Of a DNA stretch of 64,000 nucleotides, positions 5,836 to 57,449 are shown piece after piece. A program made the translations under genes and the position numbers. Numbering within the stretch: position 1 is the first letter of the stretch; each line of letters starts with the position of its first letter. Source of the DNA: Paenibacillus massiliensis 2301065 = DSM 16942. GTDB lineage: Bacteria; Bacillota; Bacilli; Paenibacillales; Paenibacillaceae. Under the pieces are notes generated by a model. It was not told the origin of the DNA, made no database searches, and saw only the letters and a list, made by a program, of their open reading frames with translations. The stretch is from NCBI RefSeq assembly GCF_000377505.1, contig NZ_KB898187.1, positions 1 through 64,000 of the forward strand, given 5' to 3'.

Positions 5836-5876
5836 GTTGTAATATGCAGTTGTTATAATTGTTGTTGCTGTATATA

Positions 5877-5912
5877 AGCGGTGTTGCCGATAGTCGGTAG
5901 CACCGTTTTTTG
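5877..5912 (+). terminator. Rho-independent terminator after the efflux operon
   Basis: GCGGTG...GCCGA/TCGG...CACCG hairpin followed by TTTTTTG. Downstream, 5913-6132 holds the leader of the next operon. It includes a perfect 13-bp palindrome GTCAAATTTTGAC near 6056 and no convincing -35/-10 pair that I can settle on. Confidence 0.85.
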
Positions 5913-6132
5913 TTCTGCAAATTCAAGTGCTAATTGCGGCAAGGTTGTAGAACGAGCTAAATAAGCATGAAAGCGGCTGGAGGTCCAAACGTTCACCATA
6001 GTTGCGCGGACCCGAGCTCTGAACATCTTCAGTTCAATCTATATAGTGTGAATTGTCAAATTTTGACGAGAAGCAGGTCGGTCATTTACACTAAGAGTGG
6101 CCTTTTTCATATGATAAATGGAGGGATTCACG

Positions 6133-6972
6133 ATGGAAATCAAGTTATCCTTGGATTATGAAGCCTATGAAGGTGGAGCAGTAATGGTGGACCTGGTTCG
6201 TGAGCTGGCGGGGAAGCCGGAGAGCACAGAGGTGACCTCATTGATCATTGGTGACTGGGGCGGAGCCTATGAGCAGGGCCCAGAGGATTTTGTGGAAGAG
6301 CTGATTGCACAAAAGGAACAGTTCCCGCAATTAAAGAAGCTGTTTATTGGAGACATGGGCTACGAGGAATGTGAGGTATCCTGGATCAATCAAGCGAATC
6401 TGGGGCCGCTGCTGCAGGCTTTTCCCCAGCTGGAGTCGTTCACGGTCAAGGGAAGTACAGATCTGGAGCTTGACCCGCTGAATCATGACCATTTACAGGA
6501 GCTCGTCATTATTTGTGGTGGACTTCCAAAAAGAGTCCTTCATCAAATCCATGCAGCCTCTCTACCGGAGCTACGGAAGCTGGAGCTGTATCTTGGGGTT
6601 GAGGACTATGGCTTTGATGGACAAATGGAGGATATCTTACCATTTCTGAACCAGAATCCTTTTCCGAAGCTGACTTATCTTGGGCTCAAGGATAGTGAGC
6701 TACAGGACGAGATTGCAATCGCTGCTGCACAGTCCCCGGTGCTGAGTCAATTGGAGTTGCTTGACCTCTCCATGGGCACGCTATCGGATCAAGGAGCTGA
6801 GGCTCTGCTGGCAAGCGAGAGTGTGCGTAAGCTCAAGCATCTGAATCTAAGCTACCATTACATGTCGGATGAGATGCTGCTGAAATGGAAACAAAGTGGA
6901 CTGTCTGTAGATGTAAGTGAACAGCAAGAGTCTGATGAGGATGATTGGCGTTATCCGGCATTGACCGAATAG
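6133..6972 (+). CDS. STM4015-family leucine-rich-repeat protein
   Basis: 279 residues from ATG 6133, chosen over ATG 6118 because GGAGGGA (6120-6125) is correctly spaced only for 6133. No signal peptide. From ~residue 75 the protein shows leucine-rich repeats of ribonuclease-inhibitor type (LESFTVKGSTDLEL, LRKLELYLGVEDYG, LTYLGLKDSELQDE, LELLDLSMGTLSDQG, LKHLNLSYHYMSDE). It is the first gene of the operon whose later members match the Salmonella STM4014-STM4011 set. LRR folds bind proteins, so it may scaffold the enzymes or present a substrate. The function of the whole family is not established to my knowledge. Confidence 0.85.
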   Translation: MEIKLSLDYEAYEGGAVMVDLVRELAGKPESTEVTSLIIGDWGGAYEQGPEDFVEELIAQKEQFPQLKKLFIGDMGYEECEVSWINQANLGPLLQAFPQLESFTVKGSTDLELDPLNHDHLQELVIICGGLPKRVLHQIHAASLPELRKLELYLGVEDYGFDGQMEDILPFLNQNPFPKLTYLGLKDSELQDEIAIAAAQSPVLSQLELLDLSMGTLSDQGAEALLASESVRKLKHLNLSYHYMSDEMLLKWKQSGLSVDVSEQQESDEDDWRYPALTE

Positions 6973-7029
6973 GATGTGCCATAGACATTAGTGAATGTAG
7001 CTGATGAACGTAGCAAAGGTGGGATCATC

Positions 7030-8373
7030 ATGAATCGCGCGACATGTAGGCAGGTAGGCGAGGGGATGCCTGACATCTATGCAGACAGCCCTCATGTGGA
7101 CAACATCGCCTGGATGAGGAATGTGCCTTACATTGTCATCGGTAATTCAGGCAATAAGCGCATACTCGGTATTCAACAAGCCAGAGACAGTCTCGGATTG
7201 CAACCACCCATAGTGCTGAGCTACCTTGAACTGCTGGAATGGAAGCGTAGGGGGCGACACCTGTCGGAAATGCCTGAGTTGATGGCGGTGCATGTTAATC
7301 GTTCAGCCAGCGCCAGAGGCCCAGTCCTGCGTCTTGATGCTCCAGGTGATCATTTTGGTGTAGAAATGGAGCTTATCGCTCTAGGCGCTGAAGAGAGCAT
7401 AGGCGACGATAGCCTGCTGCCCATGAAGGGCAGTCTAGCTACGGGAAGAATGCTCTTGGCAGAGCAGGCCAGAGCATTGCAGCCGCATCCAGGGCGTATT
7501 TGGTATCCTGCGCAGTGGTTCAAAGGCTACTGCCGATTGCTGGCATGGCTTCGCTCGGAAATGCTACTACTATGGCCTGAACACCACTGGATCAATGATC
7601 CTGTGGAGATTCCAGTCATGTTCGACAAGCGTTGCACCAGTATCCGTCTGTCTTCAGCAGGGGTGAGAGTCCCTCAATCGCTGCATGGGCACTCATTAAG
7701 GCCTTCTGCGAAGCATTGCCCTGCGGATGTTGCGATTCCAGGAAGCGGTGAGGAACTGAGAGAGAACTTGCAGAATGCAGGCATGCATCGCGCATTCATC
7801 AAGCTGTTCTGCGGCTCTGCTGCTTCGGGTGTGATTGCCTATCAATTTCATCCGGTGACGGGGAAAGAAATTGCCCAGACGACGATTGGAATGGAGCAAA
7901 GCAGAGGTGAGCTCGTATTCTACAACTCTGGCCGCCTACACAAGTATACCGACGCAGCAAGCATCGGGCGACTATTAGACTGGCTATGTCACGAGGGAGT
8001 ACATGTGGAGCGCTGGATTCCCAAAGCTTCCATTCACGGGAAAGCCTTCGATGTCCGGCAGCTAGTACACCGGGGCAAGGCCTGCCATGCCGTGCTACGT
8101 GCAAGCCGAACACCGATTACCAATCTTCACCTGCGCAACGAACGTCTTCAGCCTGAGGAGGCAGGGCTAGCCAATCCTATCCTGCAGAAGGTGGCAGCAA
8201 CAGCCGAGCAAGCTCTTGCGGCGTTTCCACATTCCACGACAGCGGGAGTGGATGTATTGGTTCCTGCGGACGGCAGCGCACCCTATGTGGTGGATATGAA
8301 TCCTTATGGTGATCTGCTGTATCATGTTCGCTATGAAGGCATGGACACGTATACGTGGGAAATGGCGCATTAA
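7030..8373 (+). CDS. STM4014-family ATP-grasp protein
   Basis: 447 residues from ATG 7030, preferred over GTG 6991 because AAAGGTGGG lies 6 bases upstream. The C-terminal half has ATP-grasp features: a region with a lysine-containing strand (HRAFIKLFCGSAASGVIAY), the GKAFDVRQLVHRGKA strand, and the metal-binding end AGVDVLVPADG followed by VVDMNPYGDLL, where the Asp and Asn coordinate Mg. ATP-grasp enzymes join a carboxylate to an amine or thiol through an acyl phosphate. Substrate unknown. Expected to act in the cytoplasm with its operon partners. Confidence 0.85.
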   Translation: MNRATCRQVGEGMPDIYADSPHVDNIAWMRNVPYIVIGNSGNKRILGIQQARDSLGLQPPIVLSYLELLEWKRRGRHLSEMPELMAVHVNRSASARGPVLRLDAPGDHFGVEMELIALGAEESIGDDSLLPMKGSLATGRMLLAEQARALQPHPGRIWYPAQWFKGYCRLLAWLRSEMLLLWPEHHWINDPVEIPVMFDKRCTSIRLSSAGVRVPQSLHGHSLRPSAKHCPADVAIPGSGEELRENLQNAGMHRAFIKLFCGSAASGVIAYQFHPVTGKEIAQTTIGMEQSRGELVFYNSGRLHKYTDAASIGRLLDWLCHEGVHVERWIPKASIHGKAFDVRQLVHRGKACHAVLRASRTPITNLHLRNERLQPEEAGLANPILQKVAATAEQALAAFPHSTTAGVDVLVPADGSAPYVVDMNPYGDLLYHVRYEGMDTYTWEMAH

Positions 8374-35019: not shown

Positions 35020-35472
35020 ATGGCTAAGATTAGCATCTCTGACGTATACGACATCATCCATGCTAATCTTCGGGAAGACCCGGAGATTCTGGAGATGCTT
35101 GGATTAGAAGGGGATGCTTCGCCTCAAAAACTGGCTGTTAGGATTCAGAAACGAAGGAATCCAAAAGAGCTGGAAGCAGACAATCTGCCTCTCATCTCGT
35201 TTTTTAAAATTCCGGGAGAGCGCGGGAAAAGCTATCTTGAGTACAGGTTCAGCGTCGTTTTTATCGTCCACACTCAGGATGATGTGGGGCTGGCTGTTCG
35301 GATCGCCGACAGAATCACAGAACTCTTTGATGACAGGTTCATGAGAGGGTTGAAGCAAGTCAGCTTTTTCGGGCAATACATTACGAGTGCAGAGGATGTA
35401 TCTAACCCTGGAAAAGGCTACAAGTATTTTACCCAAATTGGTTTTACCATTGGGATAGATGAGGATGAATAA
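35020..35472 (+). CDS. Probable tail completion / tail terminator protein
   Basis: 150 residues from ATG 35020 (AGAGGA 10 bases upstream; GTG 35011 is too close to it). No signal or membrane segment. The position directly before the tail tube gene, the length and the beta/alpha pattern (LISFFKIPGERGKSYLEYRFSVV, VRIADRITELFDD) suit the small tail-completion proteins that cap the tube at its head end. Sequence identity to a named family was not recognised. It ends 13 bp before the tube gene start. Confidence 0.55.
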   Translation: MAKISISDVYDIIHANLREDPEILEMLGLEGDASPQKLAVRIQKRRNPKELEADNLPLISFFKIPGERGKSYLEYRFSVVFIVHTQDDVGLAVRIADRITELFDDRFMRGLKQVSFFGQYITSAEDVSNPGKGYKYFTQIGFTIGIDEDE

Positions 35473-35485
35473 GGAGGTCTTTTTA

Positions 35486-36544
35486 ATGGCAAACACCAAG
35501 AATAAAAAAATGATTATCAAGGGTGCCGGCAAATTCATGGCTAAAATTCCGAATTGTGATGACCTGGTTACAATCGGTACCTTGAATAACATGCGTCTGG
35601 ATGTCCAGCTTGATATGCAGGATATCGAGGGAGGCGACTCCAGCGTAGCGCTCGATACATTACTGCGCAAGAAGACGATCGATGTCACCGCTGAATCGGC
35701 CAAATTCGATCTGAATCTTGTTCGTCTGGTCCTCGGCTCCAAGCTACGTGAAGGTGTCTCGGGTGCGGCATTCAATATGGTTACAGAAACGGTTGTAGTC
35801 CCTTCAAGTTCACCTTACCAGGTTGAATTATCGCAGCTACCAATCACCACCCCAGCTCCTAAGGCTTATGAAAACCGAGTGGGCGGCAATGATGTGACTG
35901 CTAGCGTATCCATCACGGGAAAAGATAAAACGGTCATTTTTGATATGGCTCTTGCCGGTGCTACGGTTGTGATTGTGTATGCTGTCGCTCTGCCAGGTGT
36001 AACACCGGACCCTGACGGCTTTGTATGGGTGCTGGAAGAGAAGCACACCATTACGCAAAAGGGAAGTAGCTTCGAGGTCGACCTGGTTTATGCTTCTTCA
36101 CTGCATAGTGAGCCGCAAATTTCTGTCCGCACACTGAATGGAAACAAGCTGCTGAAGAAGACGGCGAGCGCTTCTCCTGGCGAGGACCAATATGTTGTTG
36201 AAGGCGGCAAACTGAAGTTTAACTCTGCGTTGAAGGACGTAAACATCTACGTGAACTACAAGCGTAACGAAGTGGTAGACGTTCTCGATATTACCACGCA
36301 GGATATGCCACTGACTGTACATGTCGTGCATGATGGACAATTCGAGCAAAAAGACGGCACTATTCAAGGCTACCAGACCGAGTTGTTCCAATGCCGCGTG
36401 AAGTCTAACTTTACTCTGGATGCGCAACGCCAGCAGGCTTCTACACACTCGGTGACCCTGACGGTGATCGATCCTGAGCGTCCTGATGGAAAACTTGGAA
36501 GCATTAAACGTTACGAGGTAGCGAGCACAGGAACCGTGTGCTAA
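35486..36544 (+). CDS. Probable major tail (tube) protein
   Basis: 352 residues from ATG 35486 with AAGGAGG 8 bases upstream. The N-terminal ~110 residues and the final ~90 (ITTQDMPLTVHVVHDG, FTLDAQRQQASTHSVTLTVI) form a beta-rich core suited to a tail tube subunit. Between them is an inserted beta-module with IVYAVAL and IYVNYKR ends. The single gene has the best ribosome site of the group and is followed at once by a strong terminator, as expected for the most abundant virion protein. No contractile-sheath features are seen. Identity rests on order and fold pattern. Confidence 0.68.
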   Translation: MANTKNKKMIIKGAGKFMAKIPNCDDLVTIGTLNNMRLDVQLDMQDIEGGDSSVALDTLLRKKTIDVTAESAKFDLNLVRLVLGSKLREGVSGAAFNMVTETVVVPSSSPYQVELSQLPITTPAPKAYENRVGGNDVTASVSITGKDKTVIFDMALAGATVVIVYAVALPGVTPDPDGFVWVLEEKHTITQKGSSFEVDLVYASSLHSEPQISVRTLNGNKLLKKTASASPGEDQYVVEGGKLKFNSALKDVNIYVNYKRNEVVDVLDITTQDMPLTVHVVHDGQFEQKDGTIQGYQTELFQCRVKSNFTLDAQRQQASTHSVTLTVIDPERPDGKLGSIKRYEVASTGTVC

Positions 36545-37199: not shown

Positions 37200-37528
37200 C
37201 CACTTCGAAGGAAGAAGAGGAATATGACAGTCAACCGCCAGTAGACTGGGCGAATATCTTCTTCAAGCTCGCGCATTACTGCAACTTTAAGAAGCAGGAT
37301 GTGTGGGATTTAACCCTTCCGCAGCTAGGTTACTATCTCGAGCAGTGCAATGAGCACATCCAGTTCACAGTCAAAATATCAACGATGTCACTTGGCGGTC
37401 TTGGATTGTTTAGTGGAGGCGTTGCTGCTGACGAACAAGGTGAAGTCGTAAAAGCCGATGGAACATATGTGGATGGATACAAAGTCGCTGACCAGGGAGA
37501 TATGGACTTCCTCGCAAGTCTGCTGTGA
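37190..37528 (+). CDS. Frameshift extension of the tail assembly chaperone (T part of gpGT)
   Basis: 112 residues in the -1 frame, joined to residue 150 of the upstream gene to give a 262-residue fusion. It begins VTVTTSKEEEEYDSQPP and includes DWANIFFKLAHYCNFKKQDV, WDLTLPQLGYYLEQCNEH and a Gly-rich stretch. It has no good ribosome site of its own; an internal GTG at 37301 has only weak SD-like bases. In lambda the T part binds the tube subunit while G binds the tape measure protein. Confidence 0.82.
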   Translation, partial: VTVTTSKEEEEYDSQPPVDWANIFFKLAHYCNFKKQDVWDLTLPQLGYYLEQCNEHIQFTVKISTMSLGGLGLFSGGVAADEQGEVVKADGTYVDGYKVADQGDMDFLASLL

Positions 37529-37595
37529 TCCGAGACTCCTGTCTGCTCCAGAATGGAGGGGCGGGAGTTTTATTATAATCAAGGTGGTGACAGTC

Positions 37596-40500
37596 TTGGA
37601 CAATATTCAGACCGGATTACTTTCGGGCTTTAAACAATCCATAGCCAGCATCAAGAAATTTGGAGAGGAGCTTGAAGGCTTGGATAGCCGTTTTGGGCGG
37701 CTTGACCAGCGCGTTCAGGCAATGCAGTCCTCTCTTGGCGCGTTGGATTCTCAAATGATTGAGCGTAGGGACGAGATAGAAAACATTATCAAAGCCATTA
37801 ATGATGTTAAGATACTTCCTTCGGAGAAGCTGAAGCGTTATTTGGTTGAGCAGATCAATCTCATGAATAAAAAGATCATTGATAAGGTAAGAGAGCAGAT
37901 TAACCTGCAGGTACAGTCCATCATGCAAGAGGTCAGCACGGGCCAGGTGGGCCCTCTAAATCTGACCAGGAATGGGCTCATACCAAATGTAAAAAGCTCA
38001 ACGAATAGTGGAGACCCTGGAGCGAAGAGCGGCGGCGTCAGCGGGTCAGGCAGTGTCTCAAGCAGTAGTGATCAGGGGGCTGCAAGCAGCAGTAAAAGAT
38101 CCGGGCTGACGGATGCAGTTATCAAGTCCTTCGGTGGTATGTTGGGCAAAAATTCAGATATTCCGGTACAACTGCTCTCCAATGCTGTCGATACCTTCAA
38201 GACAGTTCAGAATGAGCAGATCAAGATGATGCAGACAATGATGATGAAAAACCATGCCCTAAGCACAAAGCCCAAGGATAATGTGTCCGATGCGGGTAAA
38301 ACAATGGCTACAACAGCGGACATCCCGGACATTCAGAAGTTTGTCAGACAGCAATCCATCTATTATGGCACGGATTACGGGACGCTGACAAAGGTGGCTG
38401 GTATTGGTGTTCAGCAGTTCGATGACCCTACGGAAATCAAGAAATTTGTCCAGCTTGCTGCTCAGCTTCAGACCCTTGAACCGGGTAGTGATATCATCAA
38501 AATCGCTAGCGGGCTTGGATCTGTTATATCGCAGTTTGATCTGGCACTGGCAGACGTGCAGGAGAAGGTAGCACAGCCTCTAGCGGCAGTAACCGAAATT
38601 ACTCGTACTCCATCAACTAAGATCATAGAGGAAATGAGACGTTTTGACGCTGCGAATAAGGGTGGCAATATGGATCCGGATACAGCGATTGTTATGGCGG
38701 CCACCTCAATCAAGTCTGCGGCGACCGAAGGTGTAGATATCAATACATTCTACAACAATGCTCTGAAAAGTTTGCAATCCGATCATGCGCTGAGCCGTCT
38801 GGCCAAGCTTGGAGTGGACCCCTACAAGGCAGATGACATTACTGGTGCGAAAACACTTCGCCCTACAAATGAGCTGTTCACAGAGGTAGCAAGAGCTCTG
38901 ACTCGTATGGACTCCTCCACTCGAAGCGACACGTACCGGGATCTGTTCGGATCAGAACAGATATCCAAAGAGGCGGGGAGCATGTCCCGCATCATGAACA
39001 ATTTCGTAGAGACAATGAACAAGGTGGATCAGTTTAATCAAGGGCAGTATGAGAATACGATCAAAGCCTCTCTAGATAATCCTATGGTTAATGCGAATCG
39101 GGCGCACACAAGTATTAGCGTAGCGTTGGATGCACTTACCCAGGAATTCACTCCGGCCATTAATAAAGTGTCTTATATGCTGATGAATATGGCTGGCGGA
39201 ATAGAGAAGAATGCGGCAATCCTGGCTGACCTCGGTGGAATATTTGCAACAATGCTTACAGGCTTAATGGCGTGGCGTGGAATCAAGTGGGTGGGAAATA
39301 AACCTGGCGTGAATCTTCTTGAAAATGTAGAAACGCAGCGAACTCGAACTGGATTTATTAATTCTGTCGGCGGCTTACGTACAGATGGGCTGTTGTCAAG
39401 TGCTTTCGGAAATCTGAGTCGCCAACAGGTTGGGGAGATGCAGAAAAATCCTCTTCTTGAAGGTTACATTCGCAAGTTGGATGGTATGACCGAGGAGCAA
39501 AGGAATCATTTCAAAGCTTATTTGTCCGATAAGCGGATTGATGTTAAAGATTTACCGACGCTCTTCACTGCGATGGACGAAGCTCCGAATTGGGAAAAAA
39601 GGCCCGACTTAACTAATGTGGAGAAATACTCGCGAATCAGACAGTACAATAATCGTCTATCCACACGCCCGGAAGTGGCAAGTGCCCTTAGTTCTGGTTT
39701 CCTCGGTACACTAAATAGTAGTACAGCTAGTATGGGTGCATTTAACAGCCATCGAACGAATGCGGAATACAGTAACGTATCAGACCGGATGAGCCGCATG
39801 ACTCAGAAAGAGTTTGCTGGTTTTGAGAACAGCTTGGTGGAGCGCCAGCGTAACGGACTTCCGCCGATCCATGACATCACTTCACTCTCAAGAGCACTCG
39901 ATCACTACAGCAATAGTATACGGGAGTCGGAATCCGCGGCACGAAGGGCTACACCAACCTACGGCAGCCTTTCTAATGCGATCCGTTCGCTGAACTCTAG
40001 CACATCCAGTGCAGGTGGTATTCGCGAGAGATTCAGAAATTTCTTGAAAGATATCCCGAATTTAGCACGTGGGGCAGGCAGCTCTATTGTAGGGCTTACC
40101 AAGAACATCGCCAAAATGGGAGTGCAGATGGCTGCTATGTATGCGCTTGGGAAGGTTGTACAAGGAGTTACCGAAGGCATGACAACGACTGAGAGTGAAA
40201 AAAAACTCGCAGCTGCAGAGGGCAGGGAGAAGCAAAGCACCTATACTGCCAATATGTTAGAGGAAATGAGTGGAGGTGGTCTGCAGCCTCTTCTTAATCC
40301 AGCCTATTGGGGTGGTGTAGTCCGTGGCATGCTCGGGAGCGCAGGGAATGGCATTAGTAAATTTTTTGGTGGTAACGGTGATGATGTTGGTGTTGGTAAA
40401 TTGATGGATGATTTTAAATCTATGTCAGCGTACTACGGTTACAATGGTACAGCCCCGGATATGGCAAAGTGGCTCAAGGAAACAAAAGGTTTGACGATGG

Positions 40501-41903
40501 AGCAGGCAGTAAACCAGTGGTACGAAAATTCTGGGGAAGCCAAGAAGAACGAACAAATGAGACAAGAGGGCATCAACGAGCAATATAAGCAAGCCCAATT
40601 GAAAGCTGCAGAGGAGAATAGTCTCCAAGAGAATGCTAAAAAAGAATATGAGAAGCAATATAAAGAGGGGCAGCTTAACTCTTCTAGCATCAATTCGAAT
40701 GACCTCAGTCAACGTATTGATAGCGAGCTGACAAAGGTAAAGGAGGAGCACTCACAAAAGATTTCGGACGCACTCATGGGTGGGTTGTCTTCTTATGATC
40801 CCAAATACATTGAAATGCGTAAAGCACAGGTGGAAGCGGAACGCCAAGTTCTTGAGGATGAGCTAGCGATTATTGATAGCTACATTAACAGGGCTAAGAA
40901 GATCCTTGAAACTGCTGATCCTAACTCGGAAGAATACAAGAATGCGCAGAAAACGCTTGAAAATATGAAGTCTGTCCGGGATGAGGTAAAGGAGAAGGGC
41001 GAAAAAGTAATCAAGAATGACAACAATGAGGTCATTCTTGAGAAGTATCAGAAGCAGACAGGTGCCTCTGACATGAGAATGCAGCGTATTGAGCTCATGT
41101 CGCAGGCGAAGGAGCTTGAGGCTTCCTATTACATGGATACTCAGTCCAAAGAATATTACGATGCTATGAAGAGCATCACGCAGAACAAGATATCGCAAAT
41201 GCAGGCAGAGCTGGAGAACCTGAAGGCTATCGAGGTACAGGGTGAACAGACTGAGGAGCATGCGACGAAGATACTGCAAACGCAGAACAACATTGCACAG
41301 GAGCGGGTTAATCTCAAGCAATTACGACTGGATTCCATCACACTGGGAAGACAACGCATCTCGGATAATATGTCTGATCGTGAAAATGAGCTTCTTGCTC
41401 TTCAAGTTCGATCAGGGATTACAGATGAGAGCTCCCCGATTCTGCGTAACAAGCGGATTGCGAACTACAAGTCGGAAATTTCGGATATCAACGAGCTAAT
41501 CTCCCAGCATCAATCCAATTTGAAAACAGCCGGTGCGGGAGAGGCAGTGAAAATTCAACAGGAAATCCGGGACTTGCAGAAGCAGTCCTTACAGGCCCAA
41601 TTAGGAATCTTGCAGGAGGTTAAGACGGGGGCTGGCACGTTTAATATGCCACAGGGCGTGACGGCCATGTCGCGATATGAATATTTGACCCGTAATGGTA
41701 CACACACGTCAACTACGGTAGGAATGGGCGATGTGACGGTCAATATTACTTTGCCTAACGTCACTAGCGCAACCTCGGCAGAGCAATTGCAGCAGATCGG
41801 AGCTGGTCTAGGACAAGGGCTGGCGCAAGGACGTGTGGGTGGTATTCGACAGCAACTGGGCGGAAATCCGCAAACAGGCTACCGCAGTCGGTACGGCAGA
41901 TAA
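37596..41903 (+). CDS. Tail tape measure protein
   Basis: 1435 residues from TTG 37596. AAGGTGGTGA upstream makes this the best start; longer in-frame starts run into the chaperone gene. It sets tail length: the family rule of about 0.15 nm per residue would give roughly 200 nm. N-terminal coiled coil (~1-110), Ser/Gly linker, a helical TP901-type segment, a hydrophobic stretch near residue 545 (LADLGGIFATMLTGLMAW), a second hydrophobic region around 830, and long charged coiled coils at ~960-1400. No lysozyme or peptidase domain is seen in it. Confidence 0.9.
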   Translation: MDNIQTGLLSGFKQSIASIKKFGEELEGLDSRFGRLDQRVQAMQSSLGALDSQMIERRDEIENIIKAINDVKILPSEKLKRYLVEQINLMNKKIIDKVREQINLQVQSIMQEVSTGQVGPLNLTRNGLIPNVKSSTNSGDPGAKSGGVSGSGSVSSSSDQGAASSSKRSGLTDAVIKSFGGMLGKNSDIPVQLLSNAVDTFKTVQNEQIKMMQTMMMKNHALSTKPKDNVSDAGKTMATTADIPDIQKFVRQQSIYYGTDYGTLTKVAGIGVQQFDDPTEIKKFVQLAAQLQTLEPGSDIIKIASGLGSVISQFDLALADVQEKVAQPLAAVTEITRTPSTKIIEEMRRFDAANKGGNMDPDTAIVMAATSIKSAATEGVDINTFYNNALKSLQSDHALSRLAKLGVDPYKADDITGAKTLRPTNELFTEVARALTRMDSSTRSDTYRDLFGSEQISKEAGSMSRIMNNFVETMNKVDQFNQGQYENTIKASLDNPMVNANRAHTSISVALDALTQEFTPAINKVSYMLMNMAGGIEKNAAILADLGGIFATMLTGLMAWRGIKWVGNKPGVNLLENVETQRTRTGFINSVGGLRTDGLLSSAFGNLSRQQVGEMQKNPLLEGYIRKLDGMTEEQRNHFKAYLSDKRIDVKDLPTLFTAMDEAPNWEKRPDLTNVEKYSRIRQYNNRLSTRPEVASALSSGFLGTLNSSTASMGAFNSHRTNAEYSNVSDRMSRMTQKEFAGFENSLVERQRNGLPPIHDITSLSRALDHYSNSIRESESAARRATPTYGSLSNAIRSLNSSTSSAGGIRERFRNFLKDIPNLARGAGSSIVGLTKNIAKMGVQMAAMYALGKVVQGVTEGMTTTESEKKLAAAEGREKQSTYTANMLEEMSGGGLQPLLNPAYWGGVVRGMLGSAGNGISKFFGGNGDDVGVGKLMDDFKSMSAYYGYNGTAPDMAKWLKETKGLTMEQAVNQWYENSGEAKKNEQMRQEGINEQYKQAQLKAAEENSLQENAKKEYEKQYKEGQLNSSSINSNDLSQRIDSELTKVKEEHSQKISDALMGGLSSYDPKYIEMRKAQVEAERQVLEDELAIIDSYINRAKKILETADPNSEEYKNAQKTLENMKSVRDEVKEKGEKVIKNDNNEVILEKYQKQTGASDMRMQRIELMSQAKELEASYYMDTQSKEYYDAMKSITQNKISQMQAELENLKAIEVQGEQTEEHATKILQTQNNIAQERVNLKQLRLDSITLGRQRISDNMSDRENELLALQVRSGITDESSPILRNKRIANYKSEISDINELISQHQSNLKTAGAGEAVKIQQEIRDLQKQSLQAQLGILQEVKTGAGTFNMPQGVTAMSRYEYLTRNGTHTSTTVGMGDVTVNITLPNVTSATSAEQLQQIGAGLGQGLAQGRVGGIRQQLGGNPQTGYRSRYGR

Positions 41904-42190: not shown

Positions 42191-42222
42191 AGGTGGGGAT
42201 TCTTTTTAAGGAGGTTATACCC

Positions 42223-42843
42223 ATGACCCAACAGAATGTCATCTTGAATGAAGACTCTATATATAAGAAGAAGCTGTTCTACGATAACGGAATCGGGTAT
42301 CAGCAGATTCAGGCAAAATTGATAACGGAATACAAGCCCCCAACACCGACCATGAAATCACAGGTCAATCAAACAATATCTTCTTCTGCGGGCATGATCC
42401 AGGCGGGGACCTCCCACTACACGGCCACGATAACCCTGCTGTTCTACTCCAAGAAGGAGTATGCGGATTGGCTGCAGTTCATTGGATCTCAACATAAATA
42501 TTACGACGAAAAAGGAACCGTCTACGTTGGTGTTGTAGTTGGGGAGCCGGACATTAAGAATGCAGAGATGGAGACAAAGTACATTATCACCATCGAGCTG
42601 GCTCTGATCCGTAAGCAGGATTTTGAGTACAGGTATATGACGAACTTCCTCGATATTGATGACCACTGGGCCAAGGATTATATCAATGAGATGCAGCAGA
42701 TGGGGCTCGTTGCGACGAACTGGTCTTCTGACGGCAGCAATGTGGACTACTTCAGACCCAATGACCCCATCACCCGCTCGGAGTCCGTGACCCTGCTGAT
42801 GAGATCTTATCGTTACATCGACAAGCTATTGAGGGGGTATTAA
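42223..42843 (+). CDS. Baseplate/distal-tail protein with C-terminal SLH domain
   Basis: 206 residues from ATG 42223 with AAGGAGGT 6 bases upstream. Residues ~1-140 form a beta-rich domain of the type seen after tape measure genes (Dit-like position). Residues ~143-206 are an S-layer homology domain: FLDIDDHWAKDYINEMQQMG, then FRPNDPITRSESVTLLMRS. SLH domains bind pyruvylated secondary cell wall polysaccharide in Gram-positive bacteria, so this part would anchor the tail tip to the wall surface. The fusion of an SLH domain to a tail-tip protein is unusual. Confidence 0.75.
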   Translation: MTQQNVILNEDSIYKKKLFYDNGIGYQQIQAKLITEYKPPTPTMKSQVNQTISSSAGMIQAGTSHYTATITLLFYSKKEYADWLQFIGSQHKYYDEKGTVYVGVVVGEPDIKNAEMETKYIITIELALIRKQDFEYRYMTNFLDIDDHWAKDYINEMQQMGLVATNWSSDGSNVDYFRPNDPITRSESVTLLMRSYRYIDKLLRGY

Positions 42844-42844
42844 G

Positions 42845-43885
42845 GTGGAGCGCTGGATTGATGTAGACCCACTGGACTGGTTCTACCGGGATACACTGGA
42901 GATGACAAGACTAAAAACAAACCTGAACGGTGACGAAGTCCTTGCAGGCAAGACTTATAACGTATTTGCGGCGGGGCACGAAAGAATAGTCAGAAGGTTT
43001 ATTACAACCGAGGGCCAGCTGGAATTCCTGCTACCTGGCTACACCTATGATGCTAACGACCCCGTATATGTGATCGTCAATGGAGTAGAGGTTCTCCCGG
43101 AAAAGGTAGAGAACGGCAAAGTAACCATGTCCAATCCGTTGTCTGCAGGTATTGAGGTTGTATGTGTTGCGTACGGTATTCCGGATATCAAGCGTATTGG
43201 CTGCGTGGAGTCACCATACGAGGGTTGTTCAGACAGGGTACATCCCTGGGCAGACCTCAAATATAAGTCAACGTATTTCTTCAGCATGAATCACAAGCCG
43301 GAAACATGCACGGTGCTTGGCAAAAAACTGAAAAGGATCACAGTGAAAATTAATCCGGGAGACAATGTTGAGGACAAAATTGAGGCTGTCATTGGAGACA
43401 GGAAGGATGCCTTCACCATTTACAAAGGGCGAGTCTATCTCCCTTATATGTACAAGGATTTTCCTGCGAAGATCGGATACAATGCCGTTATTAACAGAAC
43501 CAGGAAGCATACATCGGAGACTGTCGTGGTTCAGTCAAGGTGTGTAAGGTACAATGACAGGTTTTTTCCAGGGGTCCGCCTACTTCGCGGTGAATTCTTT
43601 GCATTGATGGGCAGATTGCTGGAAAATATCCACAATCGGTTCACGGATAGAACTTTCCAGATCAATCCTCATCCGACGAGACACGTAGCCGACAGAGCTT
43701 CATGGGAGAAGAGGTGGTATGGAGGTCTTGTCCTATCCATGCTGAATGAAAAATTTGCTGACGGATGCTACGTGTTCCCGTTGTATAAGGATGAGAGGTT
43801 TGAGGCGGAGGAGTGCATGACAAGAGCTGAAGCCGTTACCTATTTGAACCGATTCATTGAATGGGTTACGGAAGTATATAGATAA
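42845..43885 (+). CDS. Baseplate-type protein with C-terminal SLH-like domain
   Basis: 346 residues from GTG 42845, two bases after the previous stop, with GAGGGGG upstream. It begins WIDVDPLDWFYRDTLEM and contains a small beta-module (EGQLEFLLPGYTYDA, VYVIVNGVEVLPE). The last ~65 residues resemble an SLH domain (ADRASWEKRWYGGLVLSML, then MTRAEAVTYLNRFIEW), less canonical than its neighbour. Two successive SLH-bearing tail proteins suggest cooperative wall binding. No enzymatic motif seen. Confidence 0.65.
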   Translation: MERWIDVDPLDWFYRDTLEMTRLKTNLNGDEVLAGKTYNVFAAGHERIVRRFITTEGQLEFLLPGYTYDANDPVYVIVNGVEVLPEKVENGKVTMSNPLSAGIEVVCVAYGIPDIKRIGCVESPYEGCSDRVHPWADLKYKSTYFFSMNHKPETCTVLGKKLKRITVKINPGDNVEDKIEAVIGDRKDAFTIYKGRVYLPYMYKDFPAKIGYNAVINRTRKHTSETVVVQSRCVRYNDRFFPGVRLLRGEFFALMGRLLENIHNRFTDRTFQINPHPTRHVADRASWEKRWYGGLVLSMLNEKFADGCYVFPLYKDERFEAEECMTRAEAVTYLNRFIEWVTEVYR

Positions 43886-47886: not shown

Positions 47887-48273
47887 TTGTCTAGCGGAGC
47901 TAATTTCGCAAGTTATATGGTTGGCGGCAGATTCGACCCTCCTTTTATGCCTACCAAAACGAAGCCTTTTATCGTGGGTAGTATGGTTGAATCAGAGAGG
48001 ATAGGCAAGGTTGAGAGCAAGGTTGTAGTTGAGGAGCCCTGTGAGCTGTTGTCTGTTGCTGTCGGCGTGTCTAACTATGAGCCGAAAGATTACTGGAACT
48101 TGTATGTAGGGAATGAGCTGGTATGCAAAAACATTTATACGAAAGATGTCCCGGAGGGCATGTATCTGACTGCTATCATTCCATGTGAGATCGGAACACT
48201 GTTTCACCTTGAGTTTTTTAATGAGGGAGGGAAACAGAAATACGTATGGGTCAATTATCAGATGCTGAAATAG
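47887..48273 (+). CDS. Hypothetical tail-locus protein
   Basis: 128 residues from TTG 47887, with AAGGCGGTG 6 bases upstream and overlapping the end of the previous gene. Pattern of beta strands (ESKVVVEEPCELLSVAVGV, YWNLYVGNELVCKNIYT, LFHLEFFNEGG) suggests a jelly-roll-like receptor or decoration domain. Not assigned to a family. Confidence 0.6.
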   Translation: MSSGANFASYMVGGRFDPPFMPTKTKPFIVGSMVESERIGKVESKVVVEEPCELLSVAVGVSNYEPKDYWNLYVGNELVCKNIYTKDVPEGMYLTAIIPCEIGTLFHLEFFNEGGKQKYVWVNYQMLK

Positions 48274-48288: not shown

Positions 48289-50958
48289 ATGGGGGACACA
48301 GCATACCAGCCGACACCTTGGATTGATACATTAGTCAACGAGAAAAGTCTTATGGACAGTATTGCGGGCATCTGTATGAATAACGGGTGGACAAAGGTGA
48401 AAGAGTTTACCAAAATTGCCTATCGTAGCACACTTACGAAGCCTGTAATTAAGCGATTTTACTTGCCACTGGCAAACCCAATCGTAGAGATCACAAGGCC
48501 ATTGAACAACGATTTCTATGTCTACCTTGATGGAGAGATTTGCCCGAGTTCCTACTACACCGTAACGGAGAATGGGGACAAGCTCAGTTTTCTATTTGAA
48601 GCAGGGGTCAGCGGTATGGCAGCTATTTATTATAGCGCAGTGGAGGGAACGGATACCTTTGATTTCTATGTTGCGAAGCACTACATCATAAAGAATGCTT
48701 CAGGGAATTTGTTCGGAATGGCACAGGTGGCGCACATCCATGAGCAGATTGGTAATACAGGCAATCATGTACCCTTTGCCATATATGATCCTGATGCCGA
48801 TTATGGGACCCAGTTGAGGCCCCAGGATGAGGGGATATTCTCTTGGGCTGTTCAGAAGGCAGAAGAGGACAATCTGTACGAGCTACACACCCTTTATTTT
48901 TACCAGCTGGAGAAGTGGATCGGCAACGGAAAAATGATCACTGGATGGAATAGCGCAAGCGCTGAAGAGTTGAAGCGTCTGGTATTGGACGTGGAAATGC
49001 AGACATCCATGTGGGGACTGCAAAATGATACGAACTCCCTTCAGTTCCAGGTAACTGACAAGTTCCCTCAGATGTACCAATCGCCCATCGTAGTCTCACG
49101 TACGAGAGTACCTCAGCTTGAACGTTTCGAGAAGATGGGTGGTATCGACATTAAGTACACGAACTGGTGGGATGACAGCAAGGTCATGCTCAAGGGGTTC
49201 GTTGATGGCAAATCACTTATGTTCGTCATCCTTTCAGACACAGCTCCGGTGTGGGATAACAACGTCGTTCCTGCGATTCCCTTGTATATGGGTGACTTCG
49301 ATACCGAAGAAACCTCAGAGGAGGTCGTACATAGGGAAATCATATTTGACTTTTCCGGTACGACTACAAAGTCATCTACGGTCATTTCTAACAGACCTAT
49401 GGCCAATGCACAATCATATGTTGATGTATGGCTGATGGGAGATGTGAACGGTGATTTTGATAATGAGTGGGTGAAGCTCACCATCGCAGGACAGGAGATC
49501 AAGACATTTAATGTCAGTGGAGATCACAGGCCAACGGATGATCGAAACGATGCTGAATATATGGGCAGGTTCGATATCACTGAGATTCAGGGTAAGAACT
49601 CCATCATCATTGAAGCATCCAGTGGAGAGGGTGTAAGCGGCTATACTCCAGTCGGTGCAAGGATGTGGCTAGAGCTTGTCATCCAGACGGACAAGGGTGC
49701 AGATGGAGCCCCAGCCGCGTTATTTGCAGGAACAGCACTGAGTAAGGAAGGGGCGGATGTAGAAGCCGCGATGAATGCTTCCGGAAAGTTTGATTTCGAT
49801 GATGCTGCAGTGAAGCAAGAGGTGCTTCTTCCCATCATGAAGGAGTACACTCATTATCCAAGCAATGGTGTAGATTCCGTCATGGTGAAGCAAACGAAGC
49901 ACGGCGCAAGATATCAAGCTCACTACATTGCGTGGGCTGTACCAGCCAACTCGATGCCTCCTTTAAGGCAGGATCAGAAGGACAGGAATTATCCACGGGC
50001 ATGGAACAACTACATGAACGACCAGTATAAATTTCAGTTCAATCCTTCCCGTTACAGTGGCAAGGCTCATTCTTCAAGGGCTACGGTAGTACATCCCGAA
50101 GATGGTAAGTTCGGTACACTACGGAACGTTATTTTAGTCTCCCCCTTAACTATAATGAATGGTGATGAGCTGCAGGCGACAAGAAATAACTGTGCTCCTG
50201 ACGAGGAAGATCGTTATGAAATCTACTCTTACTACTTGGTAGAAGGGATATCGCCACTTACGAAAAGACCTGCAACGGCGTATAGACCTGCGGGGCTAGG
50301 GATTCTGAAGGAAGGATATGTACTCCCTGAGATACCGCTTCCAGAGCCTGAACCGCCAGAGTTGAACGTATCGATCGCCCCGGCTTTCTCTGTGATCGAA
50401 GAAGGTCAGAGCATCAAGTTTACAACAGCTTACAGTAAGCATTCTCCACTGACGAACTTCAGATGGAACGCGGCGAGCAGCTTGACGAAGGGAAGTTACT
50501 CGGCAGAGAGTGCAATCTATACATTTAACACAGCTGGGACTTACACGGTGAGCTTTACAGTATGGAATGAACTGGGTCAGTCAGGGACGGCCTCGGCAAC
50601 GATCACTGTGAACGCCAAGCCAGTTCCACCGCCGCCCCCACCGCCGCCGCCTCCACCTAACACATTGCAGTGCGGTGTATCGAATAATACAGGTGGGGGG
50701 GCTCACTATGAGAAACACCATGAGATGGGCGCTAGTGCAGGCATGGTCAAGATTACTTATAACATGTTCACTGCAGCCGATAAGATGGAGGTTTTCTACA
50801 TGGGTCAACTGCTAGCGACTACACACATGGAGGTATCGGGAAAAGGTGAACTGAAGTTCTCGTATAATCCAGTTGCTGGTGTGACGCAGATTAAGGTTGT
50901 CTTGACCTCAAACGATCAAAGATCGGCTTGGGAGTATTTGGTGGATTGCCCCGTGTAA
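48289..50958 (+). CDS. Large tail fibre/structural protein A with PKD domain (paralogue 1 of 3)
   Basis: 889 residues from ATG 48289 with AAGGTGAGG upstream. The first ~690 residues share a scaffold with the next two genes: an N-terminal GW region, YTNWWDDSKVMLKG, VPAIPLYMG, then NPSRYSGKAHSS, VVHPEDG and EGISPLTKRPATAYRPAG. About 125 residues (~360-480) are inserted relative to paralogue 2. Beyond lies a PKD domain (~695-775), a polyproline hinge, and a C-terminal beta domain (MVKITYNMFTAADKMEVFYMG) of a type common in adhesive proteins. Probably a surface-exposed fibre component. Confidence 0.68.
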   Translation: MGDTAYQPTPWIDTLVNEKSLMDSIAGICMNNGWTKVKEFTKIAYRSTLTKPVIKRFYLPLANPIVEITRPLNNDFYVYLDGEICPSSYYTVTENGDKLSFLFEAGVSGMAAIYYSAVEGTDTFDFYVAKHYIIKNASGNLFGMAQVAHIHEQIGNTGNHVPFAIYDPDADYGTQLRPQDEGIFSWAVQKAEEDNLYELHTLYFYQLEKWIGNGKMITGWNSASAEELKRLVLDVEMQTSMWGLQNDTNSLQFQVTDKFPQMYQSPIVVSRTRVPQLERFEKMGGIDIKYTNWWDDSKVMLKGFVDGKSLMFVILSDTAPVWDNNVVPAIPLYMGDFDTEETSEEVVHREIIFDFSGTTTKSSTVISNRPMANAQSYVDVWLMGDVNGDFDNEWVKLTIAGQEIKTFNVSGDHRPTDDRNDAEYMGRFDITEIQGKNSIIIEASSGEGVSGYTPVGARMWLELVIQTDKGADGAPAALFAGTALSKEGADVEAAMNASGKFDFDDAAVKQEVLLPIMKEYTHYPSNGVDSVMVKQTKHGARYQAHYIAWAVPANSMPPLRQDQKDRNYPRAWNNYMNDQYKFQFNPSRYSGKAHSSRATVVHPEDGKFGTLRNVILVSPLTIMNGDELQATRNNCAPDEEDRYEIYSYYLVEGISPLTKRPATAYRPAGLGILKEGYVLPEIPLPEPEPPELNVSIAPAFSVIEEGQSIKFTTAYSKHSPLTNFRWNAASSLTKGSYSAESAIYTFNTAGTYTVSFTVWNELGQSGTASATITVNAKPVPPPPPPPPPPPNTLQCGVSNNTGGGAHYEKHHEMGASAGMVKITYNMFTAADKMEVFYMGQLLATTHMEVSGKGELKFSYNPVAGVTQIKVVLTSNDQRSAWEYLVDCPV

Positions 50959-51005
50959 CTGGGGGCTTCTCATATAAATGCAATTACGCAAAGGGGTGCT
51001 ATAAA

Positions 51006-52448
51006 ATGCCATTCATTGATACAACTCCTGCCAATTTTACACCAAAGATCAGGGAGAATGAACTACAGCCGTTGTTGGGTACGTTGCTCGAAACGGCAGG
51101 ATGGGAACGTGCGGCAGATTTCAAGAAGGTCGTATTCAACGCCGATACGCTCAGACCAAACTACCCTAACAATGCAGTTGCTGCGTTCCCTATTTGTGTA
51201 GCGGAGCACTTCATTTACAAGAATAAAGAAGGCCGCATGTTTGGTCTAGCTCTGGTAGGTCAGTGGAATACAACTAACGGTGAGATTGACGCGCTGGGCA
51301 AATCACCGGTAAAAGGTAAGACGCCTCTACCGATCTTCGCAGAGTGGGCCACTCAGGAATTTCGTAAGTACCGTTCTCCGCAGACTCTGTATTTTTACAT
51401 GGTGGAGAATTTGAATGGTCTGACACGTGCAGGAGATGACATTTGTCTACCTTGGACTGACAGCTCTGAAGCGGGGCTGAAGAGAGCAGCCTTGGATATC
51501 GAAGTGGAAGGGACGGCATGGGTAACCTCGGGAAGCTCTTCCAATGGTGTATTCACCATTACGAAGGCTGATGGTGATCGTATGCAGTCTCCGATCATGC
51601 AAGCAGGTCTGCGGGCAAAGTTCATGGAATCTTACCGGGATGAAAAATACAACTCCTCCGTCATGTACACCAACTGGTGGAGTGACTCTGAAATTTCAAT
51701 AAAAGGGACTCTGACAGATACTAGCTTGTGCTTCATCCTTCAGGCTGATAACGTACCTGCCCCAGAAGGGAACCTGGTTCCTACGATACCTCTGTATTTC
51801 GGTAAGCTGGATTCTGTGGAGGAAGGTGACGAGGCGTATGCCATGTTTGTAGGCAGCGTCCCGATGCTGGATACGGTAGATGGTGTAGCCAAGTATGACT
51901 TCGATAACACGGCGACACGTCAGCCTAACATTATGCCGTTACTGAAGACGTACCCGAAAAACCCTGCGAACGGTCTGGACAACGTGATGGTTCACCGAGC
52001 TAAGTTGGGAGCAAGATATCAGGCGCACTACCTGTCTTGGAACTCTCCACCTAACGCAATGCCACCTGCACGTACGACCAGTGACGGAAGGGATTACCCA
52101 CGTGCTTGGAACAACGCAGAGAACCCTCTGTATAAGTACAATTTCAACCCTTCTCGTTATAGTGGCAAAGTACACACCTCGAAGGTTTACGTAGTACATC
52201 CGGAGGAAGGTGTGAGAGGCACTCTTAAAGATACAATCGCACTTTCAGCATTCTCGTTCAATGCGAACAAGCTGCGTGTGAAGAGAGCGAATTGTCCTGA
52301 TGAATTTGACATTTATCGTTACTTTATGATTGAGGGGATCTCTCCATTCACCAAGAGACCGGGAACGCAGTTCCGTCCAGCGGGGATCGGTCTGTATCTC
52401 AACACAGTAGACGATGAGGATAAGGAAATTACTACTACCACCCCGTAA
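51006..52448 (+). CDS. Tail structural protein B (paralogue 2 of 3)
   Basis: 480 residues from ATG 51006 with AAGGGGTG 7 bases upstream; an upstream in-frame start overlaps the previous gene and lacks a ribosome site. It is the minimal form of the paralogue scaffold: GWERAADFKKVVF, YTNWWSDSEISIKG, VPTIPLYFG, NPSRYSGKVHTSKV, VVHPEEG and EGISPFTKRPGTQFRPAG. No PKD or C-terminal adhesive domain. Probably forms part of the same baseplate periphery or fibre as its neighbours. Confidence 0.65.
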   Translation: MPFIDTTPANFTPKIRENELQPLLGTLLETAGWERAADFKKVVFNADTLRPNYPNNAVAAFPICVAEHFIYKNKEGRMFGLALVGQWNTTNGEIDALGKSPVKGKTPLPIFAEWATQEFRKYRSPQTLYFYMVENLNGLTRAGDDICLPWTDSSEAGLKRAALDIEVEGTAWVTSGSSSNGVFTITKADGDRMQSPIMQAGLRAKFMESYRDEKYNSSVMYTNWWSDSEISIKGTLTDTSLCFILQADNVPAPEGNLVPTIPLYFGKLDSVEEGDEAYAMFVGSVPMLDTVDGVAKYDFDNTATRQPNIMPLLKTYPKNPANGLDNVMVHRAKLGARYQAHYLSWNSPPNAMPPARTTSDGRDYPRAWNNAENPLYKYNFNPSRYSGKVHTSKVYVVHPEEGVRGTLKDTIALSAFSFNANKLRVKRANCPDEFDIYRYFMIEGISPFTKRPGTQFRPAGIGLYLNTVDDEDKEITTTTP

Positions 52449-54341: not shown

Positions 54342-57300
54342 GTGAATATGCTGAATGGTAATAAATCTTACCTTATCAGTTTCACCGCCCTTTTTAATAA
54401 AAAGGGCTATGAACTGGCTATTGGTATAGACACGATATTTGATGACGTGCGCACTACCCAATACCATCTTACAGCCCCTGCAATAAGTACCTACCGGACA
54501 CTGAAAATGGACGTGATGAAAACCGCCACGAAATCCCCATACTCTGCTTCCAGCCTTTTTGGGAATAGGCTGCGGGAAGCCGCTAACGTTACTGAGTTTG
54601 AAGCTGTGGAGATTCAAACGGTTTATGCCAATGTCGTTTCCTACCTTTCAGATATTCAAAGGTACTTCAGCGGGGAGAGCAGGGTGGATAGTATAAGGCT
54701 CAAAACAGCCGAAGGGAAGCGCACAGCGGTTGAAACAGAGCGTAGCGGACAGAGTGAAGGTGAAGTTTTTCATAACGTCCGGTTAGATTTCACAGTTCAA
54801 GCAGAGAATTTATTGGAAGCGTACCGCGAATCGACGGAGTCAGCAGAAAACATAGTCAGAGCAGCAGCTGAAGAGCTCATTTTCTCTGAGAATACAAAAA
54901 CAATCCAGCTTCACAGTCTCTCGAATTCTGACAACATATCTAACATAAGTGGTACCGCCGTCCAAGAGCACACATATGGAGACATTAGTCTAATCTATAA
55001 TATGCTCTCACTGAAGTTCGCGGAAGCAGAGAACATTAGGCCGGCGCTCAATATCAGCTTGGACATGCTCTCAGACAGCTTCGATATGGCTCCAATTACA
55101 GAAGTATTGATGCAGACGGTGGCGGATAACGTTGTGACAACAGATATTGAACAATTTACTGGTACACACCTGACCACGGACATTAAGGATGCGAGTTTCA
55201 TTCTCTTTACGTCTTCGGTGCGTGATGACGAGCTCGACTCAGCACCTATTGAGTGTGCAGTTGAGGGAGAACTGTCCAAGCTAGCAGAGATCGAAGAGTT
55301 TACTAGTGTAGGCAGGACCAAAGATTGGGAACATACCGACGTCGAGTATTTTGTTGCGGCATCTGATGGTAGGGACGAACATGCCACCGAGATTCATAAC
55401 GCGGTAGGGTCTCGTGGACTGTCTGATATGTTCGATGGTCTGATTGAAGAAGCTGCAGGAGTCAGCTCCGTATACGGTAATGAACTGGAGATCCTGGAAT
55501 TCCTTGACGGTCAGACACAAGATAGTGGGGAAGTTGTAGTAGAGCACATGACAGGCGCGGCAAACCAGTTAGCAAATGAACTGATGGGCCCAATTGAGCT
55601 TGTACAGGCGGAGCATGATACCCAGCAGATCGAGTCTGCAATTGATGGAGCCCTAACAGCTGAAATGATTAAGGGTATGGTCACAAAATCTCCCGAAGTC
55701 AGCAGAATGGCAAGGTTGATGGAGATTACGTACGGACACAGAGCCATGGAACTGGTCTATGCAGGTATGGATGGGATCATTCAGGACACGTTGAGCCAAG
55801 AAGCTACGTTAGCTGACTCAGGATCCATCACGGATGCCATAATCGCCAGGATGACCAAAGCCCTAAACGCACGAACGCTTGAAGTGGAAATGGCTGATGG
55901 AATGTCTAAGGGTACTTTAGAGTACTTTGATGACGCAGTGGAGGTCAAACCTGAGTACGGTAACGTCGAGAGCTATGGTGAAGCAGACAACAGTATCCGA
56001 CCTGAGCACGGGTCTGTTGACTTTACTGTCAATGCAGTAGAAAGCGAGCATGAGCACGGGATGTTAGATAACCTCGGCGAAGGGATTCTAAGTGAACCAG
56101 CACACGGTAAGATGGACAGCTCTGCAGAAGGGGCGAATAGCTTAACAGAGCATGGACGAGTAGACACCTACATGGAAGGTGTTGACTCCAAGCCAGTGCA
56201 CGGTAATGCCTTAACATTCGGTGAAGGTATGTACCACTTCATGGAAGCGGGAGAGCGCAATATCGGATACGATGGCGTCATACATGATATCGGAAAGGCT
56301 ATTGTCGAGGCGAACAAAAAGCTTGTCACGGTGGAAGTACCTGAGCAGGGGGAGATCATTAGCATGGATAAGGGAGTTCTTGAACAGCCTGAACACGGTA
56401 CAAGAGACCGTCTTGTGGATGTGGAGCTTACTTCAACCGAGCATGGAGAGCCAACTATTGTGCCTGAAAGCTACTTTACTAATGTTACAGAAACGAGCAT
56501 TCGCGATATTCGTTATGAAGGCATGGATCAGCCAATTGAAACAGCATCTCGAAAGATGGAACTTGAAGCAGTCAATTCCAATCCTGAATACGCCGATTGG
56601 ATCGATCAGGACATTGGTTTTGAACACTCGACAGAGTATGCAGATCGGTTCGGAGGAACATACGAAGGTATGTACGAGACGCCTACGCTGGCCAGCAGCG
56701 AGGGTTTCACCAACGATGCTGTTGCGCATGAGGCTGAGGGCGGTGCAGGGAATGAGGGTACGATAACTACCATAGTCGCAAGTAATGAGTGGGCTGATAA
56801 TCACAGCTCTGGTGAAGGTATTCTTGATAACGAGGCGGGACTTGGCTCGGCAGATCTGGTACTTGATGCTATACAGAGCACGACCGAGGGAGGCACAGGC
56901 GAGCTAATCCTTGACGCTGTTAATAACAACGGTGAGACAGCTCGTGTTGGAGACTTCCATATGATCTCCGATAATCAAGAGATGATACTAGCGGAATTGA
57001 ACGGAGGAACCGTTGAGTCTGAGGTTGGAGAGGACACGGAAGCCGATTCTGTACTTATAACTAGAGGCACTGACATAGGTGAAATCACGGATAGCATCCG
57101 TAAAAAGAAAGTAATCCCAACTGATGTTATGCACAGCGTAGACTCTCAACGGAAGAAGAAAGTGAACGAGATGGTCATTACAGAAACTTTTGACTCGACA
57201 AGGAAAAAGAAGATCATCGACACCAGGGTTGAGAACGGGGAGCGGAGCAACCGGATCAAGGAGGTTGTCAGCGTGAATATAGAAGAGTCTGATCATGCAA

Positions 57301-57449
57301 CCAGACCTAAAAGAGTTATTGAGACGGCAATCGAAAAACCTTCCGAAGCTACACACAAAACTCCGCCAAAACCTAAGAAGGGTCGTATATGGCTCATCTT
57401 GGGCAAGGTTGCTTCCTGGAGTATCTGGAACTGGAAGAAGACGAGGTAG
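54342..57449 (+). CDS. Large acidic repeat protein with 16- and 17-residue repeats
   Basis: 1035 residues from GTG 54342 (GGGAGGT upstream; ATG 54348 is an alternative). Very acidic for most of its length. From ~residue 537 it has 16-residue repeats centred on (E/A/V)HG; Gly codons recur exactly every 48 bp at 56010, 56058, 56106, 56154 and 56202. Near the C-terminus are 17-residue repeats with RKKK(V/I); Arg codons recur every 51 bp at 57099, 57150, 57201, 57252 and 57303. The tail is Pro/Lys-rich (PPKPKKGRIW). No known family. The regular period suggests a solenoid or fibrous shaft. Confidence 0.65.
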   Translation: MNMLNGNKSYLISFTALFNKKGYELAIGIDTIFDDVRTTQYHLTAPAISTYRTLKMDVMKTATKSPYSASSLFGNRLREAANVTEFEAVEIQTVYANVVSYLSDIQRYFSGESRVDSIRLKTAEGKRTAVETERSGQSEGEVFHNVRLDFTVQAENLLEAYRESTESAENIVRAAAEELIFSENTKTIQLHSLSNSDNISNISGTAVQEHTYGDISLIYNMLSLKFAEAENIRPALNISLDMLSDSFDMAPITEVLMQTVADNVVTTDIEQFTGTHLTTDIKDASFILFTSSVRDDELDSAPIECAVEGELSKLAEIEEFTSVGRTKDWEHTDVEYFVAASDGRDEHATEIHNAVGSRGLSDMFDGLIEEAAGVSSVYGNELEILEFLDGQTQDSGEVVVEHMTGAANQLANELMGPIELVQAEHDTQQIESAIDGALTAEMIKGMVTKSPEVSRMARLMEITYGHRAMELVYAGMDGIIQDTLSQEATLADSGSITDAIIARMTKALNARTLEVEMADGMSKGTLEYFDDAVEVKPEYGNVESYGEADNSIRPEHGSVDFTVNAVESEHEHGMLDNLGEGILSEPAHGKMDSSAEGANSLTEHGRVDTYMEGVDSKPVHGNALTFGEGMYHFMEAGERNIGYDGVIHDIGKAIVEANKKLVTVEVPEQGEIISMDKGVLEQPEHGTRDRLVDVELTSTEHGEPTIVPESYFTNVTETSIRDIRYEGMDQPIETASRKMELEAVNSNPEYADWIDQDIGFEHSTEYADRFGGTYEGMYETPTLASSEGFTNDAVAHEAEGGAGNEGTITTIVASNEWADNHSSGEGILDNEAGLGSADLVLDAIQSTTEGGTGELILDAVNNNGETARVGDFHMISDNQEMILAELNGGTVESEVGEDTEADSVLITRGTDIGEITDSIRKKKVIPTDVMHSVDSQRKKKVNEMVITETFDSTRKKKIIDTRVENGERSNRIKEVVSVNIEESDHATRPKRVIETAIEKPSEATHKTPPKPKKGRIWLILGKVASWSIWNWKKTR

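Follow-up and report, generated by a model that had tools for sequence, protein, structure and literature searches.

S-layer homology (SLH) domains are present in the products of two consecutive tail-tip genes of Paenibacillus massiliensis 2301065 = DSM 16942, above the level expected by chance and to a greater extent than was first described. The two genes, here called P1 and P2, belong to a phage-type tail island within a stretch of 64,000 nucleotides (NZ_KB898187.1, positions 1 to 64,000), referred to below as the window. SLH domains normally anchor the surface proteins of bacteria to their own cell wall, and in CsaB-bearing bacteria S-layer proteins are held via a pyruvylated secondary wall polymer. 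The explanation that best fits the observations as a whole, held with somewhat more confidence than doubt, is that P1 and P2 together serve as a tail-tip adhesin for pyruvylated wall polymer, which would also couple P2 to the tail hub.

SLH domain of the first tail-tip protein

P1 (206 aa; 42223–42843, + strand; phrog_32188), a tail-tip hub protein with a C-terminal SLH domain, is the first gene after the tape-measure gene (1481 aa; 37458–41903, + strand; phrog_32382), and P1 and P2 lie directly downstream of that gene. The coordinates given for P1 and P2 in the initial annotation are correct. The Pfam SLH model (PF00395) matched residues 142–187 of P1 with an E value of 4.7e-6 and 26.9 bits (curated cut-off, 20.8 bits) and was also matched in all 24 aligned P1 homologs, bearing out the clear C-terminal SLH domain originally reported for this protein. 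This domain, SLH-a, spans residues 140–206 (42640–42840, + strand). In the alignment of the 24 homologs W149 was invariant, as were T184, R185 and E187 of the TRSE motif, while the SLH-Gly29 position was occupied by T, V, I or A instead of glycine. A start at 42193, given in the ORF list, was discarded in favour of the ATG at 42223, which corresponds to the conserved MTQQ start. Searches of P1 and P2 against NCBIfam returned nothing useful.

Of the genomes searched within the genus, 30 had full-length P1 homologs, with identities of about 70% in group A, about 60% in group B and about 35% in group C. All named bacterial homologs were from Paenibacillus or Brevibacillus, bar one labelled Bacillus sp., and the phages Jenst, SecTim467 and EZ-2018a carried relatives of both P1 and P2.

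SLH domains of the second tail-tip protein

P2 (346 aa; 42845–43885, + strand; phrog_29574) appears, from its homologs, HMM scores and a structure model, to contain two further SLH domains and a beta insert. Pfam SLH gave no match in the window P2 itself and matched 16 of the 23 P2 homologs at E<=1 (best 6e-5). With a host-derived HMM, for which 20 SLH domains were taken from this genome, the C-terminus of P2 scored 12–38 bits in 23/23 homologs and 19.5 bits in the window protein, and a comparison of the two profiles matched P1 146–197 to P2 289–341 (E 1.2e-5). These three results uphold the SLH-like C-terminus that had been suggested for the second protein. The domain, SLH-c, covers residues 272–346 (43658–43882, + strand) and includes W291, G307 (conserved in 22/23 P2 homologs) and a TRAE motif with R327 (23/23).

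P2 appears also to begin with another SLH domain, SLH-b, which the initial annotation had missed and which is split by a beta insert of about 200 aa. In the P2 alignment the N-terminus (RWIDVDPLDWFYRD) reads as the first half of an SLH domain, and NDRFFPxVRxxRGEFFxLM, about 200 residues later, reads as the second half. The putative N-terminal half comprises residues 1–30 (WIDVDPLDWFYRD; 42845–42934, + strand); the C-terminal half, residues 236–270 (43550–43654, + strand), is indicated by the fused model described below and by the conservation of R248, which was found in 22 of 23 P2 homologs and replaced by K in one. When the two halves were spliced, group C and two metagenome homologs scored 16–22 bits with the SLH HMM, above all of their controls (other or shuffled N-halves; maximum 15.7 bits), and the signal was clear in such divergent homologs only. 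At 6.9 bits the spliced domain of the window P2 did not rise above its controls, and the majority of homologs in groups A and B likewise failed, so that SLH-b in the window protein rests on homology and the structure model.

The beta insert (42950–43549, + strand) lies within SLH-b. In the model of the window P2, residues 48–110 resemble a fibre or tailspike adaptor domain, with matches to LME-1 (9efk_AE; Z 8.7, rmsd 1.6, 61 aa) and to TSP4 of CBA120 (Z 8.0). The P2 start in group C (L029–L045) was an apparent ATA codon after AGGAGG in most copies and ATG in others.

Predicted SLH trimer shared by P1 and P2

P1 and P2 are separated by 1–3 nt in groups A and B. In the homolog L004 (P1 73% and P2 64% identical to the window proteins) the stop codon of P1 is in frame with P2, and a P1–P2 fusion was obtained from the natural sequence by reading this TAA as a residue. 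The AlphaFold2 model of the fusion (32 rows) had a pLDDT of 78 and a pTM of 0.65. Its top nine matches in VIA-align were all SLH-trimer entries, the best being 3PYW (Sap; Z 14.8, rmsd 3.4, 161/178 residues, fused model 140–552), with SpaA entries at Z 12.9–13.6 and the next unrelated match at Z 9.0. The matched range spans the P1 SLH, as SLH1, and then the two SLHs of P2, as SLH2 and SLH3. Foldseek alone gave no SLH match for the fused model at E<0.001, and SLH trimers emerged only in the VIA comparison.

Structure prediction, which had been proposed as a check on the SLH domains, thus returned the SLH trimer fold in the fused homolog model and gave a weaker, incomplete match for the window P2 modelled alone (pLDDT 84.8, with a low-confidence N-terminus), where 3PYW reached Z 7.6 over 83 residues. 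The split trimer is a prediction and no proof, because the read-through fusion forces P1 and P2 into proximity. On the strength of this model it is likely that one canonical SLH trimer is divided between P1 and P2, which replaces the two separate SLH fusions envisaged in the initial annotation.

The N-terminal domain of P1 (42223–42636, + strand) is predicted with moderate confidence to have a baseplate-hub or Dit-like fold. Residues 6–137 of the fused model matched a Douge baseplate protein (Z 9.0), E217 (8.9), a p2 baseplate chain (8.1), the monocin tip (7.8) and SPP1 Dit (7.3), several hub folds being tied at Z 7–9 and parts of the model used for this comparison having low pLDDT. No sequence match to Dit was found for this domain.

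Predicted ligand groove and wall pyruvylation

A working groove in an SLH trimer is predicted by the combination of Gly29 of SLHn, Trp13 of SLHn+1 and Arg43 of SLHn+2 (Blackler 2018; PMC6081394). Grooves were named a for the P1 SLH and b and c for the P2 SLHs. Groove c is complete, with G307 (22/23), W149 of P1 (24/24) and R248 (22/23, K in one), and its Trp-to-Gly spacing is canonical. Groove a is without SLH-Gly29 (T/V/I/A at that position). In groove b, R185 of P1 (24/24) and an aromatic residue at 291 (22/23) are present, and the position of the insert makes the glycine ambiguous. The residues of groove c come from both P1 and P2, and the only complete groove therefore needs both proteins.

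The P. massiliensis genome itself encodes csaB (282 bits; cut-off, 213) and contains 77 SLH matches. A search for csaB in related genomes, advised in the initial annotation, found the gene above the cut-off in 75/75 genomes of the genus, and the wall-binding reading is therefore permitted by this result and not discriminated by it. A predicted SLH fold and wall-pyruvylation genes, the two features on which that reading had been made to depend, were both found. Phage EZ-2018a is recorded from Bacillus pumilus, and its related P1/P2 pair was counted against the wall-polymer reading. Judged from sequence, binding of pyruvylated wall polymer by the SLH module is moderately probable. We infer that the tail recognizes target walls, which is the favoured of the two roles first proposed for these domains.

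Proposed mechanism and alternatives

In the proposed mechanism, the N-terminal domain of P1 would be part of the hub ring that terminates a non-contractile tail. The P1 SLH and the two P2 SLHs, the first of them opened by the fibre-adaptor-like insert, would form one canonical trimer that links the arm protein P2 to this ring and offers one or more grooves to pyruvylated secondary wall polymer. The module would attach to the wall of Paenibacillus-type cells, either below the S-layer or inside it, with strain choice provided by variable fibres and peptidoglycan opened by the M23/3D hub protein. The chances are about even that the ligand groove exists only once the hub-ring and arm proteins meet, in which case assembly would create a wall-binding site that is borrowed from host S-layer anchoring and conserved in siphophages and headless islands.

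The main rival reading is that the split trimer acts only in assembly, as a clamp by which P2, adaptor insert included, is tied to the hub ring, and that wall polymer binding has been lost. This would suit an insert that takes the place of one groove's loop and resembles fibre-adaptor domains, as well as the loss of SLH-Gly29 in SLH-a, and trimer formation or structure alone could explain the conserved TRxE (TRAE) motifs. However, groove c keeps its three ligand residues and canonical Trp-to-Gly spacing in nearly all homologs, and SLH anchoring is used by the known hosts (csaB in 75/75, 77 SLH matches), which makes a clamp without ligand binding a serious but rather unlikely alternative.

The SLH domains might also act apart, with P1 homotrimers around the tail axis and the SLHs of P2 pairing elsewhere. 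Single SLHs form homotrimers in Deinococcus SlpA and are predicted to do the same in LysBT1 (PMC12285257), and the split-trimer model came from a forced fusion. Against such an arrangement, which is improbable, the SLHs number exactly three and follow one another canonically from P1 into P2, the fused model gives a canonical trimer and the P1 and P2 genes are strictly adjacent.

Gene content of the tail island

Upstream of the tape-measure gene, the island encodes a tail tube-type virion protein (35459–36544, + strand; phrog_2729) that is 82% identical to a virion protein of siphophage Jenst. The next gene after P2 (43891–47367, + strand) specifies a tail hub-type protein in which Pfam recognizes peptidase M23 (4.4e-27) and 3D (1.1e-11) domains. 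A variable fibre-type gene (54342–57449, + strand) is 26–30% identical between group A and B islands, whereas most of its neighbours are about 45–80% identical. The genes at 48289–50958 and 50928–52448 are tandem paralogs of virion family phrog_9258, the first with an extra C-terminal PKD region. A separate relative (phrog_28013, phrog_5955) of the window gene at 47887–48273 lies downstream of the island in genome G000 (contig 3, 71967–73082).

The flanks of the window island carry host PBP and miaA genes on the one hand and, by inspection, spoVK/hflX/glnR/glnA-type genes on the other. A sigma-like protein is encoded in the island. No sheath family was recognized among the scanned genes of the island, and Jenst-type TerL, portal and major capsid protein (MCP) were not found around it. 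The Jenst-type MCP and portal were also not found in the whole genome, where a very different head would escape such queries. The island is very probably of a headless, tailocin type. P1 and P2 of headless islands had dN/dS values of 0.05–0.20, indicating purifying selection.

Lysis genes of the island comprise an Amidase_2 endolysin (1.6e-21) and a hol-like protein or small holin-like genes, and particles are therefore probably released by lysis; an amidase and a holin are also present in group C. That the SLH domains tether the particle to the producer's own surface, the other role first proposed, is highly improbable: the csaB gene of the producer implies that the presumed ligand is present on it, but the amidase and holin-like genes of the island, the amidase and holin of group C and the occurrence of these tail genes in free phages all speak against it.

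Several islands differed in context. In group C, which is otherwise headless, a Jenst-like portal and capsid lie close to the tail in genome G009 (contig 18, near 413898–418209), which is therefore probably an intact prophage. The tape-measure ORF of one group B island (L052, 13411–14271) is only 286 aa compared with 1481 aa in the window, and its tail should therefore be very short. By eye, another group C context (L058/G016, 5231–7581) has glycosyltransferase-like genes that separate the tail tube gene from the lysis genes.

Relation to known systems

The trimers of Sap (B. anthracis, 3PYW/6BT4) and SpaA (P. alvei, 6CWI series) share with P1–P2 three ordered SLHs, a predicted spindle fold (Z 13–15) and the Trp/Gly/Arg ligand residues in one groove. 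Unlike Sap and SpaA, P1–P2 would consist of two polypeptides with a beta insert interrupting the middle SLH, and belongs to a phage-type tail instead of a secreted surface protein.

The closest phage counterparts are the Brevibacillus siphophages Jenst and SecTim467 (Jenstvirus), which have the same tail gene order as the window and proteins 73% (P1) and 57% (P2) identical. Both are complete phages with terminase, portal and capsid, whereas the window island is without these. Their siphovirus morphology was established by electron microscopy in a paper that makes no mention of S-layer or SLH (PMC4909266). With lysis genes and a non-contractile tail but no head, the cluster is most readily taken for an F-type tailocin, like F-pyocin, Listeria monocin and rhizoviticin, whose tail would presumably kill related bacteria. 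The monocin tip chain was among the fold matches of P1, and no description of an SLH module in F-type tailocins was found.

LysBT1 (PMC12285257) is a phage protein that, as is proposed for P1–P2, has an SLH for cell-surface binding; unlike P1–P2 it is no virion part but a prophage endolysin with one SLH, predicted as a homotrimer. Infection by the B. anthracis phages AP50c and Thrax1-2 needs wall pyruvylation or the S-layer held by it, and an SLH domain in their tails is not reported in the same source (PMC9703825). A phi29 review considered as a precedent for SLH in tails concerns Ig-like domains. The initial annotation knew of no well-described tail-like system with SLH domains, and the literature searched agrees, although RefSeq already lists gp155 of Jenst as an SLH protein. 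In a literature search of incomplete coverage, no account of SLH in tail proteins was found, nor any earlier report of tail proteins that share one SLH trimer.

If the proposed reading is true, Paenibacillus and Brevibacillus phages and tailocins would target the pyruvylated polymer that anchors the S-layer, an epitope whose loss comes at a high cost to these cells, and loss of csaB would be predicted to confer resistance, which can be tested. P1 and P2 would also clearly exemplify a tandem repeat module shared by two subunits, with the binding site formed on assembly.
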